Position numbers and translations under genes: made by a program. Of a DNA stretch of 64,000 nt, positions 11,701 to 64,000 are shown one piece after another; the first letter of the stretch is position 1; every line of letters begins with the position of its first letter. This stretch comes from Tachypleus tridentatus (taxonomy: Eukaryota; Arthropoda; Merostomata; Xiphosura; Limulidae): assembly GCF_004210375.1 (NCBI RefSeq), contig NC_134837.1, positions 155,041,310 to 155,105,309 on the forward strand, read 5' to 3'. The notes beneath the pieces were generated by a model. It searched no databases. It was not told the DNA's origin and saw nothing but the letters and a program-made list of their open reading frames with translations.

Positions 11701-14700
11701 GTGTTTTCTAATCCACATCTTGCAATCTTTTCCTACAGTGTAGTTTCTTAACAGTTGGTTAAAACAACATATATTACAATTTCTTTACAAGCAATGAATT
11801 TAAAGTATTCCCATTACCTGATTCATCTGAAGCTTGGCTAGTCTTGTTTCTGTAAATAGAAGTTAATAAAAGCATTAACAGTGAAACTCTTAACAAGAAA
11901 TAATATTTCACTTATACTGATAATAAGCTTTCGTTGCATGTTTAACATAAAGTTCAAATAGAAAGTTTTATTAATAATAAAAGTAAATTATGAAAACAAT
12001 GATACAAGAAGATTTACTCTCAATTAAACACTAAATCTGTCTGTAAGTTAGCTGCTTACTTTAATAGAGAACAAAGTTAAAAACCACAAAATTTTAGCAA
12101 ACTGATATTTTTTTATGAAAAAAATCTATAATAGTATGAAAGCAAGAAATTACATGTACTCTACAGGCTTATGTTATTTTAAAGCGAAAGAGATCCCACT
12201 ATAACATATGTATAATGATGTAATAACTCCATAAAATACATTTACACCAAATATTTGAAAATATTTTTCACAAAATTTATATATTAAGTCTATTTTGAAC
12301 AGTTTCTTGGAATAACTTAGAATAAAAGTTAACTTCATTTATTATAAGTTTGGTTTGGTTTGTTTGGAATTTTGTGCAGAGCTACAGGAGAGCTAACTGC
12401 ATTAGCCATCACTAATTTAGAAGTGGCAGACCAGAGAGGGAAGGAAGCTAGTTACCACCACCCATTGTGAACTCTTGAACCACTCTTCTACTATCAAATA
12501 ATGAGATTGCCCAAACATTATAATGCTCCCATGGGGCATTGATGGGACAAGATTTGAATCTGCAACCCTCAGATTGCAAGTCAAAGCCCTAACCATGCCA
12601 GGCCCACTTACTAAAAGAGAAAAAGTGTTAAAAAGCATTCATAAAATTTATTAATCACAACATTTCAGAAATATTTGTAGGAATACACTTAAGCATAATG
12701 ACTGTGTAAACAGACATTACATACTTAAGAAAAAAATTCTTCTATGCAAACAAACTTGATATTACATATTGAATAAAATAATTCTTCTGAACAGTAAACT
12801 TTGACATCACATACTCAAAGAAAACGTTCTCTAGTAGTGGGCTTCAATACTTGTACAGCCACAAAATCCTTAAAATCTAAAATGTATGAAGTAAACAAGT
12901 TTCAAACCTAATGTTAGACTTTGGTGGTTCCTTCTGTTTATTTATCATACATTTGTTCTTGCTTGCTTTGTTAACAGTGGACATTTCATATTCTTTTCCT
13001 ATGTTTACCTCTTCTACAGGAACCACTGAATCAGATGAAGTTTCCAATTTGTCTTGGGAATGGAAATATCCATGACTGGAATTTTTGGCTAATTAAGAAA
13101 AACCAAAAAACATTCATATATACACTCACACATGATGCTTCTGGTGTTCATGTTGAACTTAAACATACTGAAGTAACTTATAACTTTTCTGTTCTTTTGT
13201 TGCAGGATTAATTTAATACTATCTTCTGGTTTAATGTTACACTTATTACTATTATAACATTTATTACTAAGTTTTGGAAATGTACTAATTAAATGATAAA
13301 ACTAAAACCTAAGTCTAAATTCACTTGAAAAAAAAACACTGATAGTCATAGTGACTAATTATTGATTATTTTACTGGTCACTACACAAAATGTAATAGTC
13401 ATTGTATGATGCATGTTCACTCTTAATTCTTAATAAACCAGGAAACATACAACTCATTATGAAAAATGCAATAACTCACAGAAGACCTTTCCTGTACAGC
13501 AAACATAAATACCACTTGACTGCTGAATGTAATCTTTAACAGACTACAGCTTGCGAGCTTATGAAATTTTAGTGAAATTTTGTTAGGCTAAGTTCAGAAG
13601 CTTCTAGTTTTTACATTATAGCTACTTCTGTTAATAAATATATAACATTAGATATAAAATACATATATAAAACATGGATATGTAGTACTTGCTACATAAC
13701 AGAGCTCTTCTGCACTTTAGATGTTCTTCCATATGTCTCATTTAGTCATGCAAATTTGGATGTTTAAAAAAAATTGTATAACTTTCTAAAATGCATTTTA
13801 AAACAAAAAAACATAACAGTTACCAGAATAGAATATTCTCAAACTACTATAATCTATCCAACCTTCTAAGTTAGCTATAAACAGGTTGGAAAAATTTATT
13901 TAGCAATCAGAGCACCAAGATATGATCACCACATATGAAGTTATTCTGCTAATGATTTATAGCAGGAAAAGTAAATTGTAAGGTTCATGAAGAAAATGTG
14001 ACATCTAAACAAATTAAAAAGTTAAATATTCAAATTTTATATTATCGCTCGTCATTATGTGGAGTTAGTTTTTATAATTAATCGTAAACTCAGCAACCTA
14101 TTTTTGAGGTAGAAATTTCTGAAGTATAGAAATTGGAAATTAGATGAATCACATGACACAGTAAAATGAAGACTGAGAATTTTCTTTTTTTAAATTAAAT
14201 TTAAAAGTAGTTAATATGTGTACATTAAAATAGCTGCCCCTCAAGCAGATTTTGTAATTGGTCAAAACAACCATCAGCTTTCATTCCTGCCAGTCAAAAT
14301 TCTCTGTTTGGTATTTACTGGTTATCAGTAATGCTGTATATTAAACAGGTACTCACACAAGATTGTTTATACAGTCTACATGAATCTCTTGTATGCTCTA
14401 ATATTTAGCATACCTACTTGCATCACATAGAAGGTATCACTTATAAATTATTTACTAAACCAAATGAGTGGCTTTAACTCTATCTCACTGGGTAAGTCTA
14501 ACTGCATGTCACACTCATTTAGTGTATTAATCTGAAAATGTAATTAAACTACTTTATGTTTATGTTATACTTATTAATATAGCATAAAATCATGAATAAT
14601 AATCCATATATTAATAGTATACAAGATTTACGTTCTCGGCTTTACAAGGTAATATTTTAAAAATTCCCGAATTCCCTCAGTGTGAGAAATATGACATTTT

Positions 14701-17700
14701 CTTTAGGAATCCTTCATTCTCAATTCTATTCACCACTCTTCCACCAAGTACAAAATTTAATGTAAATTACTTACAATAACATCACCATTGCTCAGACACA
14801 CTATAATTTTTATGTTGTTCAATTCTGTTTGCTTACAGAGCCATCAAATAGAAATTCAGACCATTCTTGCCACACCCACACGTCACATCCTCTCTTCCAA
14901 GATTTGTTAACAGTTTTTTCTCACATTTAATTCTACATCATGTATAATCAACATAAAGCCAAAGTTTTCATCTATTAAATGAAGTATTATATTACATTGT
15001 TTTCTGAACAGAGAATTTGCAATTCCTCAATTAGTACAAGTTCCATTCCAATAAAATTTTAGATATATATTGTTACAAATTTAAAACTACTTAGGATAAA
15101 CAAATGTAATTTCATATTACAATTTGAAGTAATTCTAGGATGAAACATATGACAATTTAAATTTCTTTTTTTCAATGGTGATGAGGTCAGTCACTGACTG
15201 ACCACATTAATAGTTAGGGTAGCTAAGATAACAAATAAAATATAGTTTTACTGAAAACAATTTAGGAAATCATAGAGATTACACAAATGATATTTGTGAG
15301 TTTGGGAGAAGAATAATAATTTTATCATGAAATGAAAATCACTTCACTCTTGAACTAACAGCAAAACAAATCTTAAGTATAAATACTTCTCTAAAAAAAA
15401 TCTGTTTTTCATGTACAAAAAACTTGTAATACTTACTAAAAGTCCAACATATTTTGTGAAAAAACACATAGTGCATTAAAAGTTATAGTATACATACTTA
15501 ATGTATGCAACTATGTATACAAGGTTGTGTACTTTTCCCATTGTGAAATGGTTAACTCAAAATTCTCCACAATATTTTACTTGCCACCAGTACTCAGCAG
15601 AGAAAAAATTAAATGTAAAGTGTTCAAATGTCACAAATAAATATATGATAAAGAAGCACTAAAATAATGTTAAAAAAAAAACAATACCCTATTACCCAAG
15701 TGCTTTCAAAAAACAGACTTTTCTTCTTCAAGGGTAAATTGATAATTAATAATATTCAGGATATTTTAAACTTCAGGTAAAAGTGGTCCAAGTTATGAAA
15801 AATATTAATCATTACACTACATAATATAAATTTTGTTCCTGGTTAGTATGTTGTTTCTTAATTGCTTATGTTGTAAAAGTACAGAAAATGGCCATTATTC
15901 CCTTCAAACTTTGCTTTTGTGACCTGGATAATGAAATTTAGAAATTAACCTATTTTCTATGTAAAAACAGGCAGATTTGCACATTTTCATTTACATAAGG
16001 TCTGAATATCTAAAATATCCTGTTTAAAAGTGAGTAGCTTTTCAAGATTTATGGTCCAATGAAGACACCAGCTTTGATCTTTGCCTCAGACAGTTTAGGG
16101 AAGAAGTCTCGAAGGTACTTGAAGGCTGCAGACTCCTTATCAAGAGCTGTGACAAATTGTTTCATAAGACCCAATTTTATGTACAATGATGGGAACAACA
16201 CCCTTTGGAGGTCCACTAGTACCTACCCACAGAGAACTCGGTCCATTGTGGCCAGTGCTTCCTGTTGTAGTGCAATGCAGTATCCCTGCTGTCTCAAAGG
16301 CAAAGATAACAGGCTTCTGGATGAGCTATCAATGAAAAGGTCACTTGTTTGGGTTACAAGCAATTCAAATTGCCTCACACAGACTGGATACACTGTGGCA
16401 GAAGCAGAGCTCATCTTGATGAGTGTAGAAGCTTCCTCTGACTTGTGACTTGCACACTTTTGTCTAACAAATCCCACTCCTTAAGCCTAGATGTCAAAAG
16501 CTTGGAATTCGACTTTGTTAGACCTAGGTAGATTTCTGATCAAGTCATTGAGGTCTCTTTGGCTGAAATAGTATGGATTTCTCTCACTAGCTGTACCTCT
16601 GAAATTGTTATATGGATCTTCAACATCTACCTCCTCTTCCATAACATTCTAGAAAGTTCTTGAAAATTCTTGTAAGTTTGAGAAAATTCTCTATCAGCTA
16701 CTCAGCACTGAATCTACATGGAATGTTCTGGAGAATGGGTAAATTTGAAAATTTCATTACCTAGGTCACAAAAGCAAAGCTTGAAGAGAAAAATAGGTCT
16801 TTTCCATTTATTTTAGTCATAAGCAACTGGGAAATTAAACATTCTGCCCAGAAACAAGAAAAAGTAAAAATTTTGTTACATAGTGTTATACTAACTATAG
16901 GACCAGTTTCAAATACTCATCAGACATTTTTATATCTTAACTCCCATTCCAACAGTGGTATTAACAATAATCTGGAAGAAAAGTCTGACAAGAATTCAAA
17001 CTGCAAGTGAATATTTTTCAAATTAATATTAAAAGGAAATTAGAGCAACGCTATTCCATTTTAATAGCTCATCATAAAAATATTTTAATGCAAAAACAGT
17101 TTTCTAAAATCTCCGAGAATCTCAGTAGTACCTCCTATCAATAACACCATATTTCTGCCGACTTACTAAGCATATTATAATTTTCTAACAATTTATATAT
17201 AAATAAACAGGAATGTAGTGCTAACAGTTACATTAATTACAATAAAAGAAATTACACTTAAAACCTGAAAGAGAAGATCATTAACTTCTATCAAGTATTT
17301 CAATTTCTCTTGAAAATCTTTCCTTAATAACTCTTTCTTGTATTTGTTTCAGTGTTTGGCTAAGTCACAGCATTAAATCAAATTACATGCAGTAAGATAT
17401 CAAGCAGTTATGAAAATAATATTTATTTTTTTGTGTGTGTTGGCTCTATTAATTTAAATTGTATAACAACAGGTTAAATTAGTATTCATACTTTCCTGAA
17501 TTAAACAGCTAAATTCAACTGTTTAATTGAAATGTGTTAATGAGAACAATTTGGAAAAAATCTTATATATGCAAGTTATTCTAACTTGGGAAAGCAGTCA
17601 CCTTCCCCCAACTGTCTGCAGGCAGTAAAGCGTGATATAAATGTAGGATGTTGCGGGCTTGAGCACCCACATCTCGCTTTACTAATTTCTAATTTTCTTA

Positions 17701-20700
17701 TGTGAGACTATCAAATTGGAGGCTAAGACTAATAGACAGTGTATCCCCACTGCAATGCGAGTCCTACTTCATCTGTCACTTCCAAAACCTAGGAAACATT
17801 TTATAATCCCATGTTATAGCTTGTACCTTATGATAGTGTTTTTGTTTTGTTTTTTGATGTGCAGTATATTTTTTTAAAATTTTGTAAAAAAATTTCATGT
17901 TAATGTGTTTTAGTTTATGGCTTGAAAATTTTATGGTTATCATATATATATATTTGTTTATTTTTTGAGTTTTGTGCAAAGCTACACAAGAGCTATTTGC
18001 ATTAGCTGTCCCTAATTTTCCTAGAGGGAAAGCAGCTAGTCATCACCACCCACTGCCAAATCTTGAGCTACTCTTTTACCAACTAACAGTGGGATTGACT
18101 GTCACATTATAATGCCCCCACACAAACAGAATAATTCACAATTGCTTATCTGAAACGAACAACAACTGAACAGTAGGAACAATAATAAAAAGAAAATTTA
18201 TAAATCTTTGATGTTTTGTTTAAGATATAAAAACTTCTATTAGTCCTTTAACTGCATTATTCCTTCAAAATAATTATGCCATGTAAGATCCCTCAAACTT
18301 TGTTAAATGTTAAGTGTTTTAATCTTGTGTAAGTGTTAAAAAATATATTTGTCCATTAATCAATTTCCATCACAATCATTAAACATCACTATATTTCTTG
18401 TTTTTCATGTATATGTTTTTACAAATTAGGAACTTAATAAGTTAGATTTTGTAGAAGAATGAAAATAACTCTTCACAAAATATTCTTGCAAGCAGCTCAT
18501 GCATTGCATCATTCAATGTGGTAATGTAAGCAATGCATTCAATGAGTGATTTAATATTTGTATGGTAGAATTATAAGACATATTTCAAACAACAAAATAA
18601 AGAAGAAACAGATATACATTTTTGGGAGCTTTATGCTTTTACAATAAATGACTGTAGTTTTCTGTTACAATCTGCAGTCATTTAAATTTATTTCATATTT
18701 ATTTTATGGCAGCTAGAAGGCTGGTCAAATTGACTGAGTTTATACAGTTAGAGTATAGAAAGTAACAGATAAAATAAAGTTTTACTAAAAATGCATTTGA
18801 TATTTATTTAGAAGGTTGAGTTTGTTTAAATGAAATTTGAGAATTTTCAAATAAATAAAAGTATTTTTAATCTTAAAATGAAAGTCACTTTGCACTCAGA
18901 GCAGTCAACACTCTGATACCTTATATTCATAGACAAATTTTTAGTAACAATATTTAATTTAAAAAATTTGATTTTCTTGATACAAAAACAAGTAATACTT
19001 ACTTACAACTTGCCAAATTTCATGAAAATAAACAAAATATATTAGAGAAACTGTGATGAGTGTTTTGTAGTTACAGGGTCAGTCATAACGACCAACACTG
19101 TATGGAAGGAGTTAATTGCTATAAAAATTAGCACGTATACATTCTTTTCAAAACATAAAATTAAAAAGATTTTTTACAATAGGAAAAGCAGCCAGTTTAT
19201 CAAACTTACATTTTTGTGTTTGTTTATTGAAGAGTGACATAACATTTGCTTGTTTCTGTTTCAGCTGAGAAGTAGACTTTGACTGGAGTTTCTGTGATAA
19301 AAATAAGGAAGAATATCTACTGATAAAAATTAATTTCACATATATATAAATCAAGACCTTTTGATAAGAAATTCAAGGTGACTTTACAATAAACCCCCAT
19401 ATTTAAACCAACTACATCTTTAAACAGTTTTCATCCATTAAGGGAATAAGATTTCAAAGATATTTCAAGGATTGCAAACTATAATCATAAAAGTAAATAT
19501 TAAATCTATCCTTAAAAAAGCTAAGCAAACATTATCTATTTTGGACAACACTCACTGTAATGTTGCTGTGAAGTACTTAATGCAATATATCGTGACATGC
19601 AGTAATGTATTTAATATTAGATTCAGAAATTGCACGTTTCTGCAATATTAATATTAAAAAAATTAAATTGTATAAGACAATGTTCATCTATCACTGAAAT
19701 ATACTAAAGTCATTAAAAGTACCAAGTAGACTTCTCAATAAAAAATCTTTTTTTTAGGTAGTTCACTATAGTTATTATACAATAAAGTCACAGAAATAAC
19801 AGTTAACCAAGTTCTTTAGAGAACTGAACACATTTCAAAAACTATTTAAATATATCTGGAAAAAAAAATAAAGCATGTTAGGGTCACTTCTCTTTATCAA
19901 AAATCATTAAGAGCACTAAAATGTAAATCAAATAAGGAAAAAATACATAAAACAATCAAGACATCATTGGAAAGTCAGAATGAAGAAAGTCAAAAGAACA
20001 GATAATGCATAAATTAAAAGCTAATTCACCATAAATTATTCACACCCTAAAAATATTTATCCTTTTAATGTCCCATTCCTATTATATTTTTAAATGGAAG
20101 AAAATTTATAACACCTCAATAAATTGATTTATCTCAACATCATGTAACAAAACAATTGCAATTAAAAAATTCTCTACTGTAGCAGCACACTAGATCATTG
20201 GTCATTGTAATCTCACTGTATGGGCATTTTTTCACATCTTCCAAATTTTGTGGATGAGTAAAAAAAAACACTCCATAGCCACAGCAAAAATGTACTATTT
20301 CCTAATCTGTAGATATTATCACTAATAAATGGACATAGTATCAATTTACTTTTTAAAAATGCCTTTTGACTAAAGTAATATTGCCAATATCTTGTAAGTA
20401 CATTCAAAGAATAGTTGCATGATTCACCACAAAGACTGGTTTTATTAAAATCACTAATCTTGAATTGTTGTGACAGAAAGAGAGAAGAAATAATGCTAGT
20501 TTGAGAGAAAACTACCTTGTAATCTTGTTTATACATTCCTTAATAAATCTTATGTTTCTTTATATTTTTTAAATTTAAAACCAACTTTTAGAGCATAATA
20601 ATTCCTGATACCAGGGGATAAACTTGTGCTTCACATATCATTTATTTATTAAAATTATCTGACTACTGATACATTGGTTAGGAAAAACATATTTTTGTTT

Positions 20701-26500: not shown

Positions 26501-29500
26501 TTCTATTTCAATACCATTCGAACCTGAAGTGTGCATGTAATGTATACACACATAAGTACATGTAGAAGCTCATTACCTGACACCTGTTTCAAATTTTATT
26601 TGGAGATTTTGATAAGGGAAGCTACAAATCTTTCTCCCCCTCTGATGGAAAGGGGACTGTTAGGCAGTAGGTTTGTTTTCAAGTGCATAACCAATAAAAA
26701 CCAATCTCATTGCTTGTATCTTAAAACTGACACAAATTACACTACAAGGGCTGTTCAACAAATACGCGGACTGACGTCATAAAACAAAATGTACTTTATT
26801 GAGAAGTTACAGGTCTGGGACCCCTTCAAGGTACTCTCCTCCCCAACGCACACACTTATCCCAACGGTGTTTCCACTTGTTGAAACAGTCCTGGTACGCT
26901 TCTTTTGTAATGTCCTCCAGCTCCTTCATCGCATTTGCCTTAATCTTGGGAATCGTCTCAAATCTTCTTCCTTTCAAGGGTCTTTTGAGTTTGGGGAACA
27001 AGAAAAAATCGCAAGGAGCAAGGTCAGGTGAGTACGGGTGGGGGTTGGGGAAGAACAGTGATCAAGTGTTTGGCCAAAAACTCACGAGTTCTGAGGTACA
27101 AATTTCGCAGCAACGAGTTGCATCTTCAATTTTTCGGTCAAAATCTCGTAACAAGATCCCACTGATATCCCACACTCTTCAGCAAGCTCCCTGACAGTCA
27201 GACGTCGATTTGCCCGCACCAGGGTGTTGATTTTGTCGACGTGTGGGTTGTCAGTTGACGTGGAAGGACGTCCAGGACGCTCATCATCTTCAATGGACTG
27301 TCGACCATCCTTAAAACGTTCATGCCACTTGAAACATGCCGTACGCTTCATAGCAACATCACCGTAAGCCGTGTTAAGCATAGCAAAAGTTTCAGTTGCA
27401 GATTTTCCAAGTTTAACACAAAATTTCACAGCAAGTCGTTGCTCCTTCAGGTCATTTATTCTGAAATCCGCCAAACGAAAAAATCGCACTTCACTTAAAA
27501 CCGCGTAGCTAATACACAAATGATGATATCTGCAATCGGGAAATGGCGTCGTAATCAGCTGATCTGTGCGAACCTAGCGACACCAAGCGGATTCCCCTGG
27601 AACCAACTGGAGCCGCGATTCAAACAGTCCACGTATTTTTTTAACAGACCTCGTATGTAACACGAATTGTGTTCCTGGATAGTATGTGTTATTTCTTAAT
27701 TGCTTATGTTGTAAAGTACAGAAAATGGATATTATTCCCTTCAAACTTTGCTATTGTAACCTGGATAACGAACTTTAGAAATTACCCTATTTTCTATGTA
27801 AAAACAGGCAAATTTGCATATTTTCATTTACATAAGGTCTGAATAAAACAACATATGAATCAAGATTTCCAGGTATTTATACTAAAGTTATACAAAAATG
27901 AACAATAATGTTTAGAAGTGAGTAGTTTCTCGAGTTTTGCGACTGTAAGGTAAGTCACTTTCATGTATCAGCCTTCAAATATAGTCTCCAATCATAATTT
28001 CGATATACACCCTTTGGTAGTGCGTTCAAAGTCCATTATATCTTGGTGGAAGCACTCGCCTTTCTCCTCTAAGCATGCTCCCATGTTCTCCTTAAATTTA
28101 TCAAGATGAGAGTCAAGAATATGGACTTTCAGGAACATCCTGCAGCCAATTTTGATGTAGTTCTTCACTAGAGCCCCAACCAGTTCCACATAATTTTCAG
28201 TCTTGTGATTGCCTTAGAAGCCCCAAACCACTGCAACAAAGCTGCCCCAAGCTCTTTTTTCCTTCCTACTGATATTCTTGAAGAATTCTGTGCACTCCAG
28301 GATCTTCTTTATTTGTGGTCCAACGAAGACACCAGCTTTAACCTTTGCCTCAGACAGCCTAGGGAAGAAGTCTCGAAGGTACTTGAAGGCTGCAGACTCC
28401 TTATCAAGAGCTGTGACAAATTGTTTCATAAGACCCAATTTTATGTGCAATGGTGGGAACAACACCTTCTGGAGGTCCACTAGTGGCTCACACTTAACAT
28501 TGTACCTCCCCACAGAGAAGTCAGTCCACTGTGGCCAGTGCTTCCTGTTGTAGTGCACTACAGTATCCCTGCTGTCCCAAAGGCAAAGATAACAGGGAAA
28601 CTTAGTAAAGCCTCCTTGAAAACCCATCAGGAATGCCACCATTTTGAAGTCTCCAATAACCCACCAGCCATACTCATCATACTTCAAGGCTTCTAGCAAG
28701 GTCTTGACACTGTTGTATTCCTCTTTGAGGTGCACCAAATTTGAAAAGATCTAAAATTTATATAATATAAAATCTTACTATTCAAGCAAGCAAAAATTGT
28801 CCATCTTACCTTCTAGTTTTCTTCAGTGCTCGCAGGTAAAATGAGGTGCCCAGGGTTTGTCTTGATCCCCAACAGGCATGCCAAAATATGCATTGTAGGC
28901 TTCACACATTTTAGCAGATGCTGTCACAGAGTACTTTTTTGCTCTTGTCTTGATAAATTGGCCACATATATAGCAGAATGCATTTGAAGAATGCTTGCAG
29001 CTTCATGATGCCATCTCTGATAAAATCAGATAGGTCCATGTGTTCACTTAGGCAGATAGAACTATAACTAAACTGAAGTGGTGAGTCCCTGTATATATAT
29101 TGCTATGGAATGTTCTAGAAACTTCTAAAAGGTTCTTGAAAATTATCGTAAGTTTTACAACATTTTAGAAAATTCTTTATCAGCTACTCAGCACTGAATC
29201 TACCTGGAATGTTCTGGAGAATGGGTAAATTTGAAAATTTCATTACTCAGATCACAAAAGTAAAGTTTGAAGAGAAAAATATGTCTTTTCCACTTACTTT
29301 AGGCATAAGCAATTGGGAAATAACACTTTCTGTCCAGGAACAAGAAAAATTAATCATTTTCTTACATAGTGTTATTTGTTTTCAGCCTTGTTAAACCAAA
29401 AAAATGTGTTGTTAGAAGTTTTTCATCCACTAACACTTAGTTACTTTTTCCTCACCTTATACATATATGTTTGATAGTGTTAAATTTCATATTAGAAAGG

Positions 29501-32500
29501 TTTAATCATTTTTTCGTACAGCCAAATTTAATCTTGCTTTGCAAAGCCTACCAAAGGTTCGTTAAAAACATTCTTCCAGAGGCTAAAGTATCTTTTTTGA
29601 TGATACAAATATATCACCTCTACCCACCTGTTTATGTTTGTTTGTACTGAATTTCACACAAAGCTACACAAGGACTATCTGCACTAGCCATCTGTAATTT
29701 AGTAGTGTAAGACTAGAGGGAAGGCAGCTAGTCATCGCCATTGACTGCCAATAGTTGGGCTACTCTTTTACCAATAAACAGTGGGACTGACCATCTCATT
29801 ATAATGCCCCCACGGCTGAAAGGGCGAGCATGTTTGGTGTGACAGAGATTCAAATCCGTTACCCTCAGATTACAAGTCGAATGTCTTAACCACCTACCCA
29901 TGCCAGGGCTGCCAATTAATGTACATCAACATAATAATCAACATGAAGAACACAAAGGGCAAATGAAACATTGAAAACAGACTATAAGGGAAAAGATAAG
30001 GGCATGAAATTATTCATGTGGCCCAAAAAGATACTTTGAGATTATTTGATGAAGAGTTAAAAGGTAAGAACATATTTTCAGTCCTTAATTTTAAATGTGT
30101 CATTGCACTACAGATTAATGATAATAGTTACATTTAGTGATATGGTTGAGAAAATGAAAATATAATTTTACCTTAAAAAAGACTTTTGATATTCATTTAG
30201 AAGGTTTTAAGAGTTATGGCAAATGAAATTTTAAAAATCTAAGAAAAAATACTTTTAAACTTTACATGAAAATCAATTTGCATGTGAAGTATTCAGAGTC
30301 TGAGTGCAAATAACAACAATAAATAATGAATTTTAATTAGTATTATCATAAAAATTCAACATTAAATATATTGTTTTTCTGAAATTGCATACTTTTAAGA
30401 AAGTTCTTGTATAAAAATTTCAAATAATTTCAATTTCATTCATATTTTATTTTTGGAACAGAATATGATGAGAACAATATGTCCTTCCCTTGTAAGGAGC
30501 TGGTATTCACAGGCTTAAGAAAATGAGCATCTTGAGGATACCTTGAGTGGTCTTGTGGAGTTTAAATATTTACATTCTGATAGGTAATATCTGCAACCAA
30601 GCAGGATTCTTTAAAGCATGAGACAAAAAGATGATAAAAAGGAAGGAGAACTGACCAAGTCAGAGATGGAAAGAGGTGCAAAGAATAGTAACTGGATACC
30701 TTCTCATCCTATAACCTGATGAAGAAGAAAAAGCCAAATTATGGAGATAATGTGTGACAAAGGTGAGTGGGATTGTCCACATGCCAGCTTGAATAATCTT
30801 CCCCAAATGAGAAGTCAAGGAATGTGTAAGGTGCTAAATTTGGTAGGAAGATACCCAGAAGTGCTGATGTCCAACCCTACAAATAAAGAATACACTAAAT
30901 GGATGAGCTGGTGAAGCCATACACAGTAAGGGCAATGAAAGAAAGTTTAGAAATAGAAGAAAGATTCCCTGCTCATCTTGCATTCCCAACTGAGAACAAA
31001 AGATGTGAAGAATGAGAAAATGAGAAATAAAAACCAGGGAGGAAGAAATCTGACAGTAACAGGAAAAGATGAAAGCAGTAGAGAGAGCCACCCAGTAACT
31101 GGTTACCATTGGTTGGCACCTATAATTCCTAGTTGAAAAGCCATGCAACAAACTCAGAGTTGGAGAAGAGATGAATAAAAAGGAAAAAAAAAGAATGATG
31201 TAGTGGTCAACTGCAAGAATATGCCATTTTTTTGTTGACAAACTATTAGAGAAGACAAGCAAACAGAATGGGAGAGGAAGAAAGCTACATGCAGAGAGAG
31301 TTCAAAATATTTATATATGTAAAAACGGCTCATTTGGGTTAAGAAGGTCGAAACGTGTTCGCTCCTCTATGTAAAATATTTTCTCAACCCAAACGAGCCC
31401 TTTTACATATATATTTCTCTACAAGTGGGTTTTCTCGACATCACTGATTATTAGTTCAGACTATTGTGCAAAAGGTCAGACAAACCATACATGTGAACAA
31501 AGGAAACCATGACTGAGCCACCCATTATGGCACCAGCAGAAGGAGCTGATATGGAACACCTTGAATGAGGGAGAGAACACAAGAAAGAAGATGAATAGAA
31601 GAGTAAGCATAAAAGAAGAGGTTGAACCAGTTCTAACTGGATACATCCACCACTAGTGCTTACAAATGCAGAAAATGATACCAAAATATGAGAAGCCTGA
31701 AACTGTCACAACTGGCAAAGCATCAGCATGAAAGGTGCTCAGATGAGAGCAAAGCCACTGAAAAACACTAAGATTGAGAAACCATCCCATGGAAAATATC
31801 ATGTCATGTCTCATAACAAGATCTACGGCAGCTAAAACATGACAGGCTACAAAGTGGACTTGTAGAGAATGGCCCCAGAAGATTAAGGGTTTGGAAATAA
31901 AGAAAGCATGACCAAGTGTACACCTAGCAGTTGATATAGGATATCACAGTTGAGTTGTCTGAATGGATTACCAAACAGCCTCATACAACTGGAAGAAAAT
32001 TATTCAAAAACCAAATGAACCAGTGAAAATTCCAAGGAGTTGACATAAAGATTGATTCCTCTAGATTTCATTGACCAGAAATATTAAGAGTCAAGAAAGG
32101 AAGTGAAACAAGCAGACAAAAACTGTTGCACAGGAAAGATGAATAAAGGATTTTAAGACAGATTTCATAAATTGTATACAGTCCACTGAAAAAGATGTGT
32201 ATAAGCATGTCTCAAGGGAATAAGGGGTTCCATGGAAGCTCAAGTCTCCTAAAGAGAAAGTTTCATGCAGAAAGATTTGAAAAGGACAGAACTGTGAAAA
32301 CTTAATTCTCTATAGATCACAAATGAAACAGAGATGGCTATTTCTTGTTGAGATGAGAATTTAACAAGCAAATCAGATATTGAGTGGGTGTGAAAGGAGA
32401 CTTGCCCAGTTTCACTAGCCAAACTACACAAGTCATTTCCTAAAGAAGAAAAATATGGTCAGAGGAGTCTTTTTGTGATAAAGCTAAAACAAACCAAAAG

Positions 32501-48697: not shown

Positions 48698-48775
48698 AGT
48701 TTGTAGTTAAGCACAAAGCTTCACAAAGAGCTATCTGTGCTATGTCCATCATGGGTATCAAAATCCGGTTTACTG
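48698..48775 (-). repeat. SINE family 2, minus fragment
   Basis: This is the reverse complement of the family seen at 470-597: TTAAGCACAAAGCTTCACAA, CTATCTGTGCTATGTCCATC, then the B-box side (GGGTATCAAAATCCGG). The head beyond is lost. Confidence 0.65.
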
Positions 48776-53181: not shown

Positions 53182-53734
53182 TATAAACCCCAAACCCAGC
53201 TGAGACCTCGAATTTTCTTCAAACTACAGGTCGTATGATGTAACAATATTCACTTTCAGTAACGAGAAAGAATACCGAAGATTCGAGTCACATAATGCCA
53301 ACAATATTACTAAAGCCAAATACAACAATCAAACTGCATACACAACGTACAACTCGCACCAAGTTACGTAATGAAACTTGTCACAACTACTCCCTTCAAA
53401 ATAATTAACTTTTATCACTCTTGCAATAAAAAACTAAACAATAATTAAACACTATGTAACAAAATAAATTAAATAATAACACTTATACTAATGTATTGTT
53501 TATCGAACAACCAGAAATCAACAGTGAAGACCAAACAAGTCAGGGATAAAGCAGTATACGAGCACAGATCAGGAATAGGTTACAAGGAAATTTCAAAGTG
53601 GAAAGAGCTTCATACCCCTTAGTCACTATCCAGATCTTGCCGTCCTTCCAAACTATGCTGACAGACAAGCAGGAAACAGGTTAGGGATGCCACTGTGTAG
53701 ATAACAGTGACAATGAAAAATTTATAAAGTTCCA

Positions 53735-62433: not shown

Positions 62434-64000
62434 ATTGGTTGGTTGATTGTTTGGAGATTTATGGCATAAAGCAACTAGGCTATTCTGTACCAAACATCCA
62501 GTAAGAAAATTAAAAGTAAAGTTATTAGAATTTATAAAAAGGAATCAAGGTAAAGCAAAACAAAGTTCAATTTTTGAATTAAAAACTTAAATAGCATTAA
62601 ATTCAATTTTTCTATCTAGTTTGCAGCAGTAAGAGAGAAAGTAATACAAGTTTTAAAAGACTTTCTGAAGCGTAATTTTAATTATTATAACTCACCAGGA
62701 TGACTAAAAGATAAGTTCAAACATCAGCATTAGTTCCAGTCCTGGTTTCAAGTTATTTGGTATCACGGCTGTTTTCTAATTTTACTAGTTTTCAGCAGTA
62801 AGATAGAAAGTAAAGTAATATTAAGTCTTAAAAGTTTCTGTAACATAATTTTAATTATTATAACTTGCCAGGATGACTAACGAGTAAGTTAAAAGATCAC
62901 GTTAGTCACCTGATATTGGCCTTTCAAGTCCTGATTTCAAGTTATTTGAAGTCATAGCCATTCTCTAATTTCAGATCAAACTAAATTTTCTTTAATTCGT
63001 GAAAAGGAATCGTAAAAAAAAAGTCAAATTTATAAATTAAAAACTGAAATAGCTTTAAAAAGGCCAATGACCTTTAAAAAAACTAAAAATATTTGTAAGT
63101 AAGGTGGACAGTGTCACCATCGCCAATCCCTTTATCTAATGTTATGGATAAACCTTGGGACAAAACATGTCTAAAATTGTGCAGTCATTGAGAGTCATAA
63201 CAGTGCCATGACAGTAAAATGTGGCCTATTGTGACCTGAGAGTCACACGTACAACACACTGGTGCATCAGTCCCAGATAAAATAAAATGATGAGTTGAAA
63301 AACTGTGACCAATGCAATATGTCAAAGAATATTGATACAAGATGTTATTGTTTGAGAAAGGCTTCTCTGATTGATGTTTCAAGTCGAATCAGATAGTTTA
63401 TGGTGGAGTGCTGTCATCGAAACTCACACTGGGTGGGCGAGAGGAGGTTGTTTGATTTGAGGAACTAAACAAGACAAGCATTAATCATCCTCTCTAAGGT
63501 CTTACAGGAATAACTAGTCAAAGCAATTGAACAGTATTTTGATGGAAGCTTGGGATCCTTCACAGAAAGGTAGGACAACAGCGTGGTGCTATGCATCAGG
63601 AAAAACATTCTCCTGCCAGATCCAGTTAAAAACAATCAGAAAAATAGCAAGAGAAGCAGGAGATAGATGGTGCAGCATCTCGTAGTGTATATCATCAAGT
63701 CCAACAGACATACTGCCAGACCAATAAAGGACCAGTTTGAGATCCACCAGTGTATCACAGTGTAAAGGGACAATTATAGTCATAGAGAAGATCAGCCCGA
63801 GAGTATAGGCGATGTTCCAGGCATCAGCTACTTCGTCACAATAAGAGAGCAAGCTTGAAAGGGAGAATAGAATTATACTGTCTACTGACCTCTCGAATCT
63901 TGTCCCATATGACTTTGGAACTAGTGGTAGAAGATATGCTGGTTGTGAACTTAATCCAGGATTCTTTCTGGCTTTGATGTCTTACCTGCTGAGCAAGTGC
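62434..64000 (-). mobile_element. Jockey-type LINE, internally deleted, runs off the window
   Basis: Read on the minus strand. Near 63.85-63.53 kb is the start of the reverse transcriptase (SVGLDDIHYEMLHHLSPASL, IFLIVFNWIWQENVFPDAW; the family has GPDxIHYEML and FPxxWR). Near 63.38-63.18 kb is the C-terminal region that follows the RNase H part (IGHSFSTHHFILSGTDAPVC, CDSQVTIGHILLS). The RT palm and RNase H that should separate them are missing, so there is a large internal deletion. The 3' UTR continues to about 62.43 kb and contains a tandem repeat of about 170 bp. The 5' part lies beyond the window. It is probably within a DNMT3 intron, in the same orientation. Confidence 0.75.
62618..62960. 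repeat. two tandem units of about 170 bp in LINE 3' UTR
   Basis: Unit 1 starts near 62621 (TTGCAGCAGTAAGAGAGAAA) and unit 2 near 62791 (TTCAGCAGTAAGATAGAAAG). Both continue with TAATTTTAATTATTATAACT, CCAGGATGACTAA and TCAAGTTATTTG. Confidence 0.8.

Follow-up and report, generated by a model that had tools for sequence, protein, structure and literature searches.

The window, i.e. the whole stretch of 64,000 nucleotides of horseshoe crab DNA analysed here, contains two copies, A and B, of one transposon family, each carrying only some parts of the transposon gene (Table 1). Copy B spans 26740-29371 and is interrupted close to its left end by a second transposon, a mariner relic, which is a feature absent from the earlier note on this DNA. 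Once the mariner is subtracted, copy B measures 1721 bp and its left end reads CACTATGTAA. It carries the motifs C(2)C (CYLC), LH and H(4)H (HILDSH), in this order. The catalytic Asp and Glu residues (FIDSS, GDFK, GE.FHQ) were assigned by eye from the order of the motifs and are candidates. In the alignment, the presumed intron remnant of copy B is fused to the core by a deletion common to a subfamily, and it is through this deletion that linker and first-Asp stretch were lost. A zinc finger within the mariner part was considered and rejected, as the finger belongs to the Chapaev3-like part of the copy.

Table 1. Features of copies A and B and of the mariner relic nested in copy B
Feature	Positions	Strand	Basis or remark
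Copy B with target-site duplications	26737-29374	gene on -	Chapaev3-like element interrupted by nested mariner
Left target-site duplication TTA, A before	26737-26739		sequence
Left terminal CACTA of copy B (gene's 3' side)	26740-26744		severed from remainder by mariner
Mariner TA duplications	26743-26744 and 27654-27655		sequence
Nested mariner relic, 909 bp	26745-27653	-	inverted repeats, TA duplications, HTH_48
Mariner C-terminal part	26807-27061	-	ORF
Mariner HTH part	27082-27573	-	Pfam HTH_48 PF17906 (Mos1-type), E 9.5e-10
Remainder of copy B, Chapaev3-like	27656-29371	-	gene on minus strand
Left terminal inverted repeat, inner part	27670-27794		pairs with 29217-29342, 76%, E 5e-18
C-terminal piece	27995-28213	-	motif positions
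Candidate catalytic Glu, in GECFHQ	28055-28057	-	motif order
H(4)H motif HILDSH	28106-28123	-	motif positions
Catalytic core piece, first few codons from intron remnant	28217-28750	-	motif positions
LH motif	28445-28450	-	motif positions
C(2)C motif CYLC	28583-28594	-	motif positions
Presumed second Asp, in GDFK	28649-28651	-	motif order
Approximate intron remnant, splice-like start AAG/GTAAGA	28743-28809	-	alignment; limits by eye
N-terminal zinc-finger piece (FCYICGQF...GDQDKPWAPHFTCEH), stop-bounded	28826-29002	-	ORF/translation
Right terminal inverted repeat, inner part	29217-29342		pairs with 27670-27794
Right terminal TAGTG of copy B	29367-29371		sequence
Right target-site duplication TTA, T after	29372-29374		sequence
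Copy A, same family, 1071 bp	15815-16885	-	ends, inverted repeats, matches to B
Copy A TTA duplications, A before and T after	15812-15814 and 16886-16888		sequence
Copy A presumed first Asp, in FIDSS	about 16328-16330	-	motif order
Copy A middle segment	about 16340-16648	-	ORF/translation
Copy A linker	16487-16648	-	ORF/translation

The nested element resembles mariners with a Mos1-type helix-turn-helix domain in its TA duplications, its short inverted repeats (84% identity over 37 columns, a few flanking bases among them; E 5e-6) and its HTH_48 match. The TA used as its target is that of copy B's own terminal CACTA. Unlike such mariners, it apparently lacks the catalytic middle in both of its reading frames, as judged by eye, and it is therefore also a relic. 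Its YSPDLAP motif is also of mariner type.

Copy A keeps the linker, the FIDSS stretch and part of the core, while the second Asp, the C-terminus and the finger are absent. It matches copy B in three blocks, with identities of 92%, 87% and 86% (E 4e-71, 1e-104 and 4e-84). Each copy has a pair of inverted repeats of about 128 bp at 76% identity (E about 3e-19 each) and a TTA target-site duplication with A before and T after it; the ends of both resemble CACTATGTAA, and gene orientation and ends are identical in kind. The earlier note had described these shared CACTA-type ends and TTA flanks, and had also stated that copy B retains the zinc-finger and C-terminal parts which copy A lost, and copy A a middle segment which is missing from copy B. 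This observation is confirmed.

The same ends and the same orientation, about 12 kb apart, might also be found if A and B were accidental duplicates of one locus which had lost complementary parts at random. The probability of such an origin is practically negligible, as the sequence beyond the TTA looks unrelated in the two copies (by eye), which points to two independent insertions, and the junction of the main deletion in copy B is found again in 12 of the 28 other loci compared (see below). Among 87 codons compared between A and B, single differences are synonymous in 4 and amino-acid-changing in 9, numbers too small to show past selection. A CACTATGTAA word at 53450 was rejected as a further copy, since no similarity to the element lies behind it; the DNA directly after the word (53450-53600), inspected by eye, resembles a Tc1-type helix-turn-helix.

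The family is abundant in the host assembly (2.17 Gb, 205 contigs). Comparison of the core with this assembly gave 9,969 first-look candidates, only the best of which were scored, and the scored matches listed number at least 150, with E at most 5e-89. Thirty loci found with the core of copy B, among them copy B itself (L024), were read with flanks of 1.5 kb, and an end was recognised by a match to CACTATGTAA in at least 9 of 10 letters. By this rule a 5' end was present in 22 loci, a 3' end in 19, both in 15 and at least one in 26, the remaining four having none. ATWA stands before 18 of the 22 recognised 5' ends and TWAT after 16 of the 19 3' ends, copy B included; ATWA precedes 20 of the 420 CACT words in the same DNA, element ends counted in. 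The 3-bp duplications are identical in 8 of the 15 two-ended copies and non-identical in 7 (7 of 15 were identical when ends were recognised by a different rule).

In tblastn searches of the same 30 loci, the core and the C-terminus were found in all (for the core a consequence of the choice of query), the finger in 16, B's own included, the first-Asp stretch in 13, and the linker and the finger-side linker in 2 each. It is highly improbable that the protein represents a host gene family, or a captured gene on unrelated CACTA ends, and not the element's own transposase. Although no convincing Pfam or PDB relative was found for it, this reading has against it the at least 150 matches in one genome, the 26 of 30 loci with at least one such end, the order of the motifs, which is that of the CMC group, and the same gene orientation between the same ends in copies A and B. 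These results support the view that the proteins of the zinc-finger/FPCYLCLWD family are the transposase of a CAC-ended element which is abundant in the host genome.

According to the earlier note, the parts of A and B together outline one transposon gene. Locus L039 agrees with this in content: it carries all six parts, from the finger through the linker, the first-Asp stretch and the core to the C-terminus, in this order and within 2515 bp, between the ends CACTGTGTAA...TTACATAGTG, with a TAA duplication. It is broken by frameshifts and stops, and a single open frame spanning all the parts was not found. Its finger is of the CxxC...CxxC type; that of copy B is only partial, and Pfam gave nothing for it even with E values of up to 1 allowed. 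The finger of L039 is followed by a stretch of about 200 bp which begins with GTAAG and ends, by eye, in a pyrimidine-rich CAG, and which looks like an intron.

Four further loci (L054-L057), picked for long open frames, all have the first-Asp stretch, the core and the C-terminus; the linker is present in three of them, the finger-side linker in one and the finger in none. Every part is thus present in one of the 34 loci (L039), and an intact gene in none of the 34. Intact copies outside such ends, the observation that would speak against the link between protein and termini, were not seen in this sample, in which no intact copy of any kind was seen.

The probable assignment of the element to Chapaev3 is based on published traits, i.e. 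termini, target and three motifs. According to the parts of PMC4079192 available to us, Chapaev3 elements (Merrow, Garfield, Conan) begin with CAC and end in GTG, duplicate a TWA target which stands between A and T, and have transposases with C(2)C, LH and H(4)H. The element studied here has CAC...GTG termini with inverted repeats, TWA duplications between A and T (in A and B, and at 18 of 22 5' ends and 16 of 19 3' ends among the 30 loci) and the same three motifs. The size is also similar (2,289 bp in Garfield_BM, 2,515 bp in L039). Merrow and Garfield have two exons and most other Chapaev3 elements apparently one (PMC4079192, same parts), so that the two-exon gene which we infer here would be like the former and unlike the latter. 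An N-terminal ‘Chapa’ zinc finger is said to be common to Chapaev3 and RAG1 in the consulted part of PMC4411706. In PMC12730594, Chapaev3 is treated as a sublineage of Chapaev. Unlike the published elements, the copies read here are mostly internally deleted forms. As the comparison was made by description, kinship with Chapaev3 at the level of sequence is presumed.

To our knowledge, EnSpm elements are defined by the lack of a fixed target, their 3-bp duplications having no fixed sequence. A CACTA/EnSpm element in this strict sense is an unlikely reading of the present one. It would account for the CACTA termini and the 3-bp duplications, and in EnSpm the C(2)C and H(3-4)H motifs lie between the second Asp and Glu, as they also do in Mirage, Chapaev, Transib and RAG1 (PMC12730594, in part); however, the target here is nearly fixed, being mostly ATWA/TWAT (18/22 and 16/19 ends), the H(4)H and LH motifs fit Chapaev3 as far as its published description goes, and the N-terminal finger may do so too. 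Chapaev3 (CMC) is a better name for the element than CACTA/EnSpm, in view of its fixed TWA target and the presence of an H(4)H motif. The tie between the protein family and CACTA-type ends proposed in the earlier note is supported, with a change of superfamily. Transib target duplications are of 5 bp, in contrast to the 3 bp observed here, and the core has no detectable sequence match in the PDB. On the other hand, the C(2)C and H(3-4)H motifs between the second Asp and Glu are common to our element and Transib/RAG1 (PMC12730594, in part), and Chapaev3, as a CMC lineage, has Transib/RAG1 among its relatives.

Comparison of the core with general collections gave nothing convincing. Of 17 members compared with Pfam, at best one matched SNaCT14 (E 0.0092) and 6 matched GRAS (E 0.014); these and EXO70, as relatives of the core, were rejected as chance because of their weak scores. 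The best E values were 0.082 against PHROGs, and 0.086 and 0.13 against the PDB. With the core as tblastn query, a phage collection gave nothing with E of 1 or below, and a related-locus search of viral contigs was likewise negative. Degenerate motif scans of viral and prokaryotic genome contigs returned either 23 loci (L001-L023) or none, and the 23 are taken as chance, since tblastn of the core against L001-L022 was no better than E 0.11; core and C-terminus gave nothing against L023. None of these collections, whether viral, phage or prokaryotic, yielded a relative with the queries used.

For the mapping of deletions, L039 served as the reference and copy B (L024) and 28 other loci were compared with it. 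Copy B lacks about 684-1448 of L039, with the junction at 682-685/1447-1455. The same junction, within about six bases, is present in 12 of the 28 other loci (L028, L030, L031, L035, L038, L046 to L051 and L053; L045 is near), a share inflated by the choice of loci with B's core, which would under-sample A-type copies. A right-hand break at 1388 is common to five loci (L033, L037, L040, L042, L044), and one at or near 1282 to L025, L029 and L036, with L026 at 1302 and L052 at 1283. The breaks of copy A (242/1062, 1395/1593 and 1878/2321 of L039) were found in none of the 28 other loci in this B-selected set.

Copy B and the 12 sharers of its junction have a median pairwise identity of 88% (78 pairs, range 78-98%). 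In our reading, the B-type copies represent a non-autonomous subfamily with an internal deletion, which spread some time ago. The contents of A and B are complementary, as the earlier note had stated, but the large deletion of B is not private to it, and in view of the common junction the two copies are no longer to be seen as mirror images, each damaged on its own. As a separate observation, two B-type loci on different contigs, L046 (C11) and L053 (C10), are 98% identical, well over the median, a hint at recent duplication or transposition.

Based on these observations, we suggest that copy B is very probably a dead copy, non-autonomous in origin, of an abundant animal DNA transposon of the cut-and-paste type which belongs to Chapaev3 (CMC group), and the deleted form of which spread in trans before this copy was hit by a mariner. 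The parent gene, on the minus strand, would consist of a zinc-finger exon, a short intron, a linker and a DDE core with the presumed order first Asp (FIDSS), second Asp (GDFK), C(2)C, LH, H(4)H and Glu. By analogy with the named family, the finger and adjoining domains may bind the inverted repeats of roughly 150 bp, while the core would cut at the CAC ends, and joining to ATWAT targets with a 3-bp stagger would leave the TWA duplications. Lacking the presumed first Asp and containing stops, copy B could be moved only by a transposase from elsewhere; the deleted form, without the linker and first Asp, would have spread through transposase supplied in trans, with copy B as one such insertion. 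It would later have been damaged by stops and by the mariner insertion into its CACTA end, and further movement now seems unlikely, since this end is split.

KP-type repressors of P elements regulate the full-length element. By analogy, the B-type form, which retains the zinc finger and the intron donor site and has lost the linker and the first-Asp stretch, might once have coded for a catalytically dead, end-binding transposase regulating its full-length parent, but we consider this very unlikely.

The interpretation given in the earlier note is partly supported, as its central idea was right and three corrections are needed. The outcome is an ordinary one: copy B is a degenerate member of an abundant and apparently Chapaev3-type family, new within a known kind, and the amplified deletion form is its sole mildly unusual point. 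What is gained beyond annotation is small, as the lineage and its ends have been described already, and transposases with the motifs named above have been tied to CAC...GTG ends in print (PMC4079192 and PMC12730594, in the parts consulted). We found no mention of Chapaev or CMC in the available part of the main text of the horseshoe crab genome paper (PMC7210998), and our literature search for CMC DNA transposons in the horseshoe crab found none. If the protein is a transposase, similar gene predictions in related genomes are probably transposon-derived. The common deletion junction might also be helpful as a handle on the spread of internally deleted DNA transposons within a family.

Other repeats were noted in the window. 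A SINE-like dispersed repeat occurs in both orientations in four copies (1579-1832, 12351-12533, 17951-18121 and 29633-29890), with shorter matches at 546-600 and 48699-48729; no tRNA was detected in it by ARAGORN and no known RNA family by Rfam. At 62657-62971 there are two adjacent pairs of direct repeats with spacings of 173 and 189 bp.
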